DNA of 64,000 nt, taken from assembly GCA_017549805.1 (NCBI GenBank), contig JAFYNJ010000009.1:62001-126000 (forward strand), in the 5' to 3' direction. Numbering within the stretch: the stretch's first letter is position 1; each line of letters starts with the position of its first letter. This DNA is from Bacteroidales bacterium. GTDB lineage: Bacteria > Bacteroidota > Bacteroidia > Bacteroidales > F082. The translations under genes and the position numbers were made by a program. Positions 8,610 to 44,645 of the stretch are shown piece by piece. The notes beneath the pieces were generated by a model. The model was not told the origin of the DNA and did not search any database. It saw only the letters and a program-made list of their open reading frames with translations.

Positions 8610-8706
8610 CGTCATTGCGAGGAGCCTAAGCGACGAAGCAATCCAACCTGAACTATCAAAGCTATTTCGAGTCAAGTTGGATTGCTTCGCTTCGCTCGCA
8701 ATGACG
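8610..8706. repeat. palindromic interspersed repeat, copy A (97 bp)
   Basis: Begins CGTCATTGCGAG and ends CTCGCAATGACG, a perfect 12-bp terminal inverted repeat. An inner inverted pair GAAGCAATCCAAC / GTTGGATTGCTTC flanks a short AT-rich centre. The single strand could fold into one long hairpin. It lies between the convergent dipeptidase and ABC permease genes. Related copies lie at 20601-20734 and 21395-21502. Confidence 0.9.
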
Positions 8707-20084: not shown

Positions 20085-21515
20085 TCACATCATTCGAGCA
20101 ATCAAGATAGTTTTTGTTTTGTATGTCACCTTAAAGCGGTCATCGATCCTTCTACCCACCACCCAAACAATCTCATCATTGGCTGTGGTGAGCACAAGGC
20201 ATTCCTCCTTCTGTCGGGTGGTCATCTTTTGGTCCACAAAGAAGTCGCTGAGCAGTTTGGAGCCTTTCATCCCAAGGGGATGGAAGCGGTCACCCGCTTG
20301 CCATTTTCTCAATTTAAGGGGAAACGTTAACTTGTCGTAGTCCAGTTGGGCCACTTCGGATGATTTATCCAGAACGAAACTCTCGTCTTTTGACAGTTGT
20401 TCGTATGCCAATTCCACCGATGATTCCGTTTGCTCGCAAATCGGCGTCAGTTCCAAGCCATCGCGCTCAATGGTTAACCGATGCGTTGGCGAAAAGAACG
20501 TGGTCCCAGGTTGGCCGTTCATCGCTTCATAGATGAAATGGACTTGGTCGGAATTGAAACCATAATCACGGAGCCACTCAAACAACAGCTGTTCGCCTCC
20601 CGTCATTGCGAGGAGAAACGACGAAGCAATCCAACCTGAATTATCTATGCCATTTTGAGTCAAGTTGGATTTCCTCCCTTCGGTCGGAGAACCTTCGGGT
20701 TGCCGCGCTCCACTCCGTTCCGCTCGCAATGACGTAACCGACGCTAACTTTTCCTGTAACAATTCCCTATAAAGCTCGTTTTCCGAAGCAAGATGATTGA
20801 TGGATTTTAGAATCGCACTCCTCCCCTCTTTGGAGATGCCGTCAATCACTGGCAACAATTCATGACGAATGTTATTGCGAAGAAACTGCGTCTCAGCGTT
20901 GGTATGATCTTCACGCCACTGGATCCCATTTTCAATGGCATATTGATGAATCTCATCCCTTGAAACATCAAGCAAAGGTCGGATGATATGCCCATTGACA
21001 GGTTGCATTCCTTTCAAGCCTCGAATACCGGCACCCCGCAATAGATTGATAAAGAAAGTCTCCAATTGATCGTCGGCATGATGGGCCACGGCGATATAAT
21101 CGTAGTTCAGTTGTTGGCGTAATTCCTCAAACCAAGCGTAACGCAACTCACGGGCAGTCATCTCGATGGAGAGGCCATGTTCTTTGGCATAAACCTCCGT
21201 CTCAAATTGCTTCACATAGATCTTTAACCCGTTCCGCTCGGCATAGTCACGCACGAACCGCTCATCGCCATCCGACTCTTCACCTCTTAGGTGAAAGTTG
21301 CAATGCGCCAGCACGAAGTCCACTTTGGCCTTCAGCAACAAATCGACGAGCACCATCGAATCGATGCCGCCGCTGAGAGCAAGGATCAGCCGTTCGTCAT
21401 TGCGAGGGAGGCACGACCGAAGCAATCCAACCTGAATTGTTTCTGTTTGTGTCAGGTTGGATTGCCGCGTCGCTCCGCTATGCTTCGCTCCTCGCAATGA
21501 CGTACCGTCCATCAT
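20085..21515 (-). CDS. tilS: tRNA(Ile)-lysidine synthase carrying two in-frame palindromic-repeat insertions
   Basis: 476 residues. Converts the wobble C of tRNA-Ile(CAU) to lysidine, an essential reaction. The PP-loop ATP site SGGIDS is at 48-53, followed by CNFHLRGEESDGDE, VAHHADDQ and other TilS motifs. The C-terminal half holds the tRNA-binding region, ending in KLRKWQAGDRFHPLGMKG...K-L-SDFF. Residues ~5-40 are encoded by repeat copy C and residues ~261-305 by repeat copy B. Removing both would leave about 395 residues. The frame stays open across both insertions, so the gene looks functional, but the N-terminus is almost wholly repeat-derived. The start codon overlaps the flavin reductase stop (ATGA). 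Confidence 0.9.
   Translation of the reverse strand: MMDGTSLRGAKHSGATRQSNLTQTETIQVGLLRSCLPRNDERLILALSGGIDSMVLVDLLLKAKVDFVLAHCNFHLRGEESDGDERFVRDYAERNGLKIYVKQFETEVYAKEHGLSIEMTARELRYAWFEELRQQLNYDYIAVAHHADDQLETFFINLLRGAGIRGLKGMQPVNGHIIRPLLDVSRDEIHQYAIENGIQWREDHTNAETQFLRNNIRHELLPVIDGISKEGRSAILKSINHLASENELYRELLQEKLASVTSLRAERSGARQPEGSPTEGRKSNLTQNGIDNSGWIASSFLLAMTGGEQLLFEWLRDYGFNSDQVHFIYEAMNGQPGTTFFSPTHRLTIERDGLELTPICEQTESSVELAYEQLSKDESFVLDKSSEVAQLDYDKLTFPLKLRKWQAGDRFHPLGMKGSKLLSDFFVDQKMTTRQKEECLVLTTANDEIVWVVGRRIDDRFKVTYKTKTILIARMM
20601..20734. repeat. palindromic interspersed repeat, copy B (134 bp), inside tilS
   Basis: Ends CGTCATTGCGAGG and CTCGCAATGACG as in copies A and C. The left arm is near-identical to copy A. 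The right arm is longer and has diverged from GTTGGATT onward. It encodes tilS residues ~261-305. Its length is not a multiple of three, so the host frame depends on extra bases gained or lost at the junction. Confidence 0.88.
21395..21502. repeat. palindromic interspersed repeat, copy C (108 bp), inside tilS
   Basis: Same terminal inverted repeat as the other copies, with inner arms GCAATCCAACCTGA / TCAGGTTGGATTGC. Exactly 36 codons long; precise removal would keep tilS in frame and fuse the first four residues to the segment just before the PP-loop. Confidence 0.9.
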
Positions 21516-22078
21516 TTCTTTTTCTTTACCGAAAACCCAAATCCTCCAATCTTCTCACCTAAACCATAGTATTTCCCATGGGAATAGGCTAAGGGCCGAG
21601 CGTGATTCAGCTGGAAGGCTCCCGTGCCCTTGTCAATCAAACTTTCCTCCGCATCAATAGCCACCACTTCGGCAATGAACATGTCATGAGAGCCCAGCTC
21701 CTTCACCTCCACCACCTTGCATTCGATGCTCAACGGTGACTCCTTGATCAATGGGGCCTTCACGATTTGAGCCAGCTCCGTGTGAAGATGCATCTGCTTG
21801 AACTTATTGTAATCCCTACCCGATCGCACCCCACACCAATCCGTAGCAGCGGCCAGTTCCTCGGTGGTCAGGTTGATGACAAACTCCATGTTTTTCAGGA
21901 TGATGTCATGCGAATGGCGCTCTTTCCTCACGGAGATATAGCACATCGGCGGATCGGAACAAATCGTTCCAGTCCAGCCAATGGTAATAATATTATAGTT
22001 CTCCTCGCAATCACCGCAGGTTACCATCACGGCAGGCAACGGATAGATCAGGGTTCCGGGTTTAAAGGGGATTTTCAT
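21512..22078 (-). CDS. flavin reductase family protein
   Basis: 188 residues, flavin-reductase-like FMN-binding split barrel. Typical features: PVVMVTCGD near the start, GWTGTICSDPPMCYISVRKERHSHDII in the flavin-binding part, then a C-terminal lysine-rich tail (KKKK). Members reduce free FMN/FAD or bind FMN tightly; partner unknown. It overlaps tilS by four bases in ATGA arrangement, so both are probably translated from one message. The start follows a -7 box at 22109-22116 and a heptanucleotide repeat tract. Confidence 0.85.
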   Translation of the reverse strand: MKIPFKPGTLIYPLPAVMVTCGDCEENYNIITIGWTGTICSDPPMCYISVRKERHSHDIILKNMEFVINLTTEELAAATDWCGVRSGRDYNKFKQMHLHTELAQIVKAPLIKESPLSIECKVVEVKELGSHDMFIAEVVAIDAEESLIDKGTGAFQLNHARPLAYSHGKYYGLGEKIGGFGFSVKKKK

Positions 22079-44267: not shown

Positions 44268-44645
44268 TTAGACGTTCAAGTATCTCATCAAAAGGGCATA
44301 ACGATCACGCAAGTCGCTATTCTCATCCGGTGAGCTGAACGTGTTGGCTACTTTGTAGTTGTATCGGTAGAAGCTTTGCAGAATGGCGCTACAGTCGGGC
44401 TTGTTGACCAAGATGCTCACCAGAATCCTTCCAGGATCTTCAGGGATGTTATCCACCGTCAGGCCCAATATCTTGGCATCGTTCTCCTCCACAATCCTCG
44501 CGATCTCAGAGAGGCTGTAGTCGTATGCGCCCATCTCGAGCTGGATGATGCAGCTGAAAGCTGAAAGCTGAAAGCTGAAAGATTTCCAATTTTCAGTTCT
44601 CAGTTCTCCGTTTTCCGTTTTTAGTTCTTCGTTCTCAGCTTTCAT
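44268..44645 (-). CDS. truncated CBS-domain protein: only the C-terminal ACT-like part remains (possible pseudogene)
   Basis: The segment from about residue 33 (IIQLEMGAYDYSLSEIARIVEENDAKILGL) to the end matches the C-terminal domain of the ~218-residue two-CBS protein usually encoded beside nadK in Bacteroidota. The two CBS domains are missing. In their place the frame is made of a 7-base repeat tract (44553-44643) that reads as AENEELK-TENGELR-TENWKSF. The tract also overlaps the rsgA stop. An alternative ATG lies at 44660 and a later internal ATG at 44534. It is probably a decayed gene that may still give a small protein of 88-130 residues. Confidence 0.62.
   Translation of the reverse strand: MKAENEELKTENGELRTENWKSFSFQLSAFSCIIQLEMGAYDYSLSEIARIVEENDAKILGLTVDNIPEDPGRILVSILVNKPDCSAILQSFYRYNYKVANTFSSPDENSDLRDRYALLMRYLNV
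44553..44643. repeat. long degenerate heptanucleotide tract (13 units)
   Basis: On the plus strand GCTGAAA repeats four times, then GATTTCC, AATTTTC, AGTTCTC, AGTTCTC, CGTTTTC, CGTTTTT, AGTTCTT, CGTTCTC and AGCTTTC continue in exact 7-base phase. It spans the rsgA stop codon and the 5' end of the truncated CBS gene. Confidence 0.8.

Follow-up and report, generated by a model that had tools for sequence, protein, structure and literature searches.

Palindromic repeats of putative CGTC-tagged type lie in frame in tilS, and a TilS linker is an insertion hotspot among related gut Bacteroidales

The window, the 64,000-nucleotide stretch of DNA analysed here, carries a tilS gene whose reading frame remains open through two palindromic repeats, and an intergenic copy of the same repeat lies elsewhere in it (Table 1). 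All three copies are located where the earlier note had placed them, and the frame runs uninterrupted from 21515 to 20085, as that note also held. This gene (20085-21515) is the sole tilS match in the genome. Its two elements touch 82 of the 476 codons, and 79 codons lie wholly inside them, in agreement with the “about 81” repeat-encoded residues first estimated. Each copy is read in the one coding-strand frame, of three, that has no stop codon. TilS matches the Pfam domains ATP_bind_3 (residues 43-219) and TilS_C (400-468), and the mid-gene element sits between the helix past the PP-loop domain and the LLFEW stretch, a site that profile alignment to 3a2k places at the junction to the next domain. 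From the N-terminal copy to the SGGIDS motif, no ATG, GTG or TTG occurs and there is one CTG; some repeat-encoded residues therefore begin the protein, unless that CTG is the start. We infer that the tilS inserts are translated.

Table 1. Coordinates of the features discussed, in the window unless a locus (L) is given.
Feature	Position	Strand	Remarks
tilS, tRNA(Ile)-lysidine synthase	20085..21515	-	476 aa; frame open through two repeats
Predicted CGTC REP head-to-head dimer, 108 bp	21395..21502	-	TilS residues 5-41 (N-terminus)
Predicted CGTC REP head-to-head dimer, 134 bp	20601..20734	-	TilS residues 261-305, linker past the PP-loop domain
Predicted intergenic CGTC REP dimer, 97 bp	8610..8706	.	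convergent open frames on either side, gaps of 14 and 11 bp
ORF of 188 aa upstream of tilS	21512..22078	-	flavin-reductase-like by eye; stop overlaps the tilS start (ATGA)
Short tandem repeats, 7-base and 21-28-base	44552-44643		gap between predicted ORFs 44254 and 44635
...SLLAMT-reading half-element case	L058:84-1820	-	
...SLLAMT-reading half-element case	L050:6297-6869	-	
...SLLAMT-reading half-element case	L040:1889-2824	+	
Y1 transposase gene with hairpins alongside	L032:7700-8520		GCATCC...GGATGCTAGC hairpins

Exact 12-bp ends number six in the window; the expectation, allowing up to one mismatch, is 0.30. Folded as single-stranded DNA, the elements at 20601, 21395 and 8610 give z values of -3.72, -8.97 and -7.56, respectively, and an Rfam search of the window returned zero matches at the gathering score. 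The genome-wide search for these ends that had been proposed reveals a dispersed family: exact CGTCATTGCGAG ends occur 36 times in forward and 36 times in reverse orientation in the 2.73-Mb genome (G000), compared with 2+0 for a reversed-pattern control. The surroundings of every such end were examined, and the ends group into 49 clusters, or 46 distinct ones once three doubled places on contigs C6, C13 and C14 are removed. Each of these three places is present twice with identical surroundings which, together with a contamination value of 7.58, suggests redundant strain contigs. Complete head-to-head dimers whose ends are exact make up 21 of the distinct clusters, and the remainder include halves, decayed dimers and bare 12-mers.

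Each half-element is a hairpin composed of CGTC, ATTGC, a variable middle, GCAAT and the tail CCA. The CGTC forms an unpaired foot at one end, the stem starts with complementary A and T (ATTGC/GCAAT), and the tail GCAATCCA is found in most halves. A recognisable partner was present for 144 of 182 tagged half-stems (38 had none), and the variable stem position pairs in 143 of these 144 (116 G-C, 20 T-A and 7 C-G, with a single C-A), a count made on the loci available at that stage, whose rows are related and hence non-independent. Among 18 intergenic copies examined, 12 lie between unidirectional genes, 5 between convergent and 0 between divergent ones, with 1 at an edge, according to approximate gene calls. 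No clear target-site duplication emerges: none of 2 or more bases was seen in 24 of 30 dimers, 2 bases were duplicated in 4 and 3 bases in 2. TA precedes 20 of 60 dimer ends in G000 and G072 (about 3.4% expected) and 1 of 84 ends in viral contigs. A scan of viral contigs gave at least 120 stretches. BLAST matched the half alone: two Methylocystis rosea plasmids share 97.2% identity with it over 36 nt (query positions 1-36, stopping at the CCA tail), two Methylosinus plasmids share 94.4%, and one Novosphingobium plasmid and two Helicobacter canis prophage records share 96.7% over 30 nt. The idea that the repeats are built to be stop-free was rejected, as the 21 dimers of G000 have 2.14 open frames of six, versus 2.26 in dinucleotide shuffles, and the 9 dimers of G072 have 2.33 versus 2.55.

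Judged by their sequence, the elements of the window are putative CGTC-tagged REP dimers. This superfamily, described by Di Nocera et al. 2013 (PMC3733652), was already known from Bacteroidetes according to the available portions of that paper, and intragenic REPs have been published for other species; the earlier note is corrected on this point. The shared features include the CGTC end, a stem starting with AT, the CCA tail, a predominance of head-to-head dimers, dispersal, a frequent location near gene 3' ends in convergent or unidirectional arrangements, some intragenic copies and, in the portions of the paper covered, the absence of a linked transposase. The foot is described there as CGTC, or as the variants TGTC and CCTC, unpaired at one end. 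Unlike the published stem of 8-9 bp with a loop of 4-5 nt (exceptions in loops being allowed), the stem found here is imperfect, with about 5 sure pairs read by eye, and its middle is variable and longer.

A comparison with relatives extends the picture. Those close relatives that are named are uncultured Bacteroidales, several of them from yak, goat, water buffalo and deer, and among 149 genomes from the family tilS turned up in 145. Seventy-six TilS proteins were extracted, of which 70 (67 genus rows from 65 genomes, plus 3 outgroup rows) entered a quick maximum-likelihood tree built with the insert columns left out; L095, L146, L148 and L160 had no anchors, the frames of L137 and L138 were broken past the linker, and L171-L184 do not form part of the tree. 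The N-terminal copy is confined to this genome among the 76 sequences compared. The mid-gene site holds an insert in 34 of the 67 genus rows, drawn from at least three palindrome families: CGTC-ATTGC in 6 rows (one partial), a CGTC half with a second palindrome in 4, CGTC-ATTTC or ATTCC in 11, a palindrome with CCTTCGACAGGCTCAGG in 11, and a GCATCC hairpin in 2. With classes assigned by hand, 18 state changes are needed on the tree; insert versus none alone requires 16, at least 11 of them forced by well-supported (starred) branches. The class of insert clusters on the tree, and sister species can differ, as in G109, which has no insert, versus G072, which has one. The tilS linker past the PP-loop domain is thus an insertion hotspot. 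In relatives the N-terminal segment is absent, and the second site is either empty or filled by other inserts. The earlier note would have been refuted by the same segments, with conserved protein sequence, in all of them, and this is not what is seen. L099 (G014) has a second ATTTC-type insert (VISTERSEWRNLLF) within the PP-loop domain of tilS itself.

The frame is kept in all 34 insert-bearing rows of the tree. Weighing against constant frame-keeping, the tilS frame breaks right past the variable linker in L137 (G144) and L138 (G113), whether through a faulty assembly or a genuine loss. Ribosomal bypass of hairpin inserts is known from other systems, and this precedent would allow the tilS inserts to be skipped in translation, or spliced out, and never to appear in the protein; the frames open through the inserts in 34 rows, and the use by both window copies of the only open frame of three, when an arbitrary dimer has about 2.1 of six frames open, make such an outcome very improbable. 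Likewise, the sequences are mostly metagenome assemblies, and both the contamination of this genome and its three doubled places could be taken to indicate that the inserts are artefacts of assembly or binning. Differing in-frame inserts in 34 rows, with classes that cluster by clade, and the use of identical gene sites in other species argue against this, and the prospect of an artefact is slight in the extreme.

Copies of a family tend to be more numerous in genomes whose tilS bears an insert of that class. For example, exact CGTCATTGCGAG ends have a median of 24.5 in 10 genomes with the insert and 1 in 55 without. Exact CGTCATTTCGA ends have a median of 90.5 in 10 genomes with that insert and 2.5 (up to 137) in 24 without, and CCTTCGACAGGCTCAGG ends (up to one mismatch) 55 in 15 with and 14 (up to 86) in 17 without, the 34 and 32 genomes of these last two comparisons having been hand-picked, and kinship being uncorrected throughout. 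Some family-rich genomes have no matching tilS insert. Exchange between species is also indicated: around the insert, approximately 300 alignment columns are 95-100% identical between G137 and G072, versus 63-91% in other windows of the alignment (gapped ends aside), a tract that we infer was transferred by homologous recombination.

Constraint on the inserts was gauged from three groups of four species that share an insert. Differences at codon positions 1, 2 and 3 number 53, 54 and 75 within the inserts and 714, 379 and 1995 in the rest of the gene, the pairs being non-independent; in the ATTTC group alone they number 37, 33 and 58, with some third-position excess. Since the codon-position bias is weak in the inserts alone, tilS is under protein-level selection and the inserts much less so. 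Selection of the repeat-encoded peptides as protein would fit the retention of frame in 34 of 34 rows and the clustering of classes on the tree, but it is hard to reconcile with that weak bias, with the use of all three repeat frames and with the different peptides found at one site, and it must be regarded as quite improbable. Insert DNA also differs less between species than do third positions elsewhere in the gene, something a purely neutral passenger would not have to do. The low divergence could stem from youth, homogenisation or recombination, or from a role at the nucleic-acid level. Such a role, whether as an mRNA hairpin tuning tilS expression or as a protein-binding site, would be in keeping with the low divergence, the missing codon-phase signal, the stem covariation between families and the strong folding. 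It is nonetheless unlikely, as G109 manages without the insert of its sister G072, unrelated families occupy the site, and homogenisation, recent insertion or recombination would give equally low divergence.

The repeats also occur in genes other than tilS. Of the 46 CGTC clusters of G000, 14 sit in frame, distributed over 13 conserved genes that were recognised by a Pfam domain or by orthologs: tilS (two copies) and genes for an rsmI-like protein, a U32 peptidase, a 4Fe-4S protein, a GreA/GreB-type protein, a DUF3987 protein, a GHMP-kinase-like protein (zero Pfam matches; 18 of 18 genomes have an ortholog), a SusD-like protein and a nuclease, together with dnaE, nnr, rfbB and aroA; short names such as these are our assignments from the domains. 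All three repeat frames are in use across the different genes. In the SusD-like and nuclease genes, a half-element encodes the hydrophobic part of an apparent signal peptide, and both cases are insecure because an ATG within the repeat could be the start. An hflX-like copy was taken off the count because an ATG lies just past the repeat. In alignments to PDB entries, the repeat-encoded stretches of aroA, rfbB and nnr fall in poorly aligned or gapped parts, and that of dnaE beyond the aligned part. In G072, a census of open frames at the first 30 of 135 exact ends placed 10 of 21 clusters within such frames; two of these are bare 12-mers, four sit right where the frame begins, and two resemble signal peptides. 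The sites themselves recur between species: the U32 site holds CGTC copies in G000, G072, G133, G083 and G111 and other repeats in further species, and the GHMP-like site is occupied by a complete copy in G000 and by halves of reduced length in G137, G109 and G072 (for these two comparisons rows L257, L265 and L287 were not found, and L269 is a fragment). In U32 peptidase loci L270-L286, the same loops hold short tandem-like repeats (QLAVDSGQLAVDS, RRTENGKLSVFRSPFSV) in other species, so other intergenic repeats also get into coding loops. Half-elements reading ...SLLAMT make up the hydrophobic core of what look like signal peptides of (lipo)proteins at the three loci of Table 1 and at L212 and L227 of G072, a downstream ATG start being possible.

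The reading that best accommodates these data, with a probability of roughly 0.75, is that the palindromes are mobile and for the most part neutral, and that selection sorts them by whether the frame stays intact and the loop is tolerant. It is supported by the dispersed copies, the open frames, the relatives that have no copy, the repeated gain or loss, the high-identity tract shared by G137 and G072, and the weak codon constraint. Specifically, the CGTC REP hairpins, mostly as head-to-head dimers, would be non-autonomous mobile palindromes that land widely, with selection retaining intergenic copies and in-frame copies in loops, linkers and tails. The tilS linker and the loops of the U32 peptidase and the GHMP-kinase-like protein would tolerate very different peptides. 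At such sites, families amplified in the genome would be gained, eroded by in-frame deletion and replaced, and the inserts, presumably neutral, would sometimes pass between species through homologous recombination. It is tempting to go further and to view the palindromes as steadily supplying new protein segments (loops, signal-peptide cores, pieces that erode until they look ordinary, and in-frame cassettes recombining between species at fixed tolerant sites of essential genes), possibly with a choice of site biased by the element as well as by tolerance, and this extension is offered tentatively, as a possibility below even odds.

Palindromes within genes, both REP and RPE, are already known. 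As in Rickettsia (PMC3733652, PMC2229807), where RPE-6 is CGTC-1 and RPE-4 is CGTC-4 on the description given in PMC3733652, they lie in frame in genes for conserved proteins; the earlier note's view that a dispersed family has inserted in frame into an essential gene, in the manner of the Rickettsia elements, is borne out. Unlike the RPE as described there, the present case involves gut Bacteroidales, several unrelated families per gene site and turnover between sister species. In-frame fusions are likewise described for enterobacterial and Neisseria MITEs that contain open frames (PMC2229807), and a Yersinia repeat is described in the same source as making up part of a signal peptide. The literature searched, at the level of titles and abstract openings, yielded no report of palindromes in tilS or of several palindrome families at one gene site, and the covered portions of PMC3733652 describe no recurrent use of the tilS linker by several families. 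Published in-gene palindromes come chiefly from Rickettsia and certain REP-rich genomes and are isolated occurrences; the literature searched, at that same level, has no counterpart to the linker of one essential gene reused by several families, where palindromes are gained, lost, replaced and apparently transferred. The phenomenon is also broader than was first noted, since it concerns palindromes, normally intergenic, that have repeatedly come to lie in frame in essential enzymes across a group of gut bacteria. The origin of protein sequence from selfish repeats becomes directly testable because dozens of sister species show turnover, and annotators should consider that loops, and perhaps signal peptides, of such genomes may be repeat-derived.

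Movement would probably be single-stranded and hairpin-based, by way of some enzyme. The earlier note had proposed a RAYT/IS200-type mover, and this part of its reading finds no support: the genome has one Y1_Tnp gene, and the CGTC-ATTGC REP is absent from 19 of 20 Y1 loci searched over about 1.5 kb on each side (some cut by contig ends). A Y1 transposase, IS200-like or RAYT, of the same genome could still act on the palindromes in trans. Y1 matches occur in 70 of 99 genus genomes and, as a raw association, in 43 of 44 with at least 10 CGTC ends versus 27 of 55 others, and the element resembles both Y1 substrates and GTAG REPs in being a hairpin with a tetranucleotide at its foot (PMC6006769, PMC3733652, as far as the available portions go). 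RAYT-associated REPs, however, are described there as having GT[AG]G and commonly lying near the transposase, whereas the foot here is CGTC and 19 of the 20 Y1 loci have no copy nearby, and no CGTC-transposase linkage is described in the covered portions of PMC3733652. A phylogenetic pair test of Y1 against CGTC ends gave no association but, with about 1 of its 6 independent pairs informative, has almost no power and tips the balance neither way. G133 has 35 ends with zero Y1 matches at a completeness of 88%; movement by Y1 is, on balance, doubtful. Some Y1 loci carry short CGTCATT or AATGACG words, and hairpins of other kinds border the Y1 genes of G000 and G150. Finally, GCATCC...GGATGCTAGC hairpins lie alongside the Y1 gene of L032, and the tilS genes of G099 and G127 carry a hairpin of the same kind, GCATCCCTACGGGATGC.
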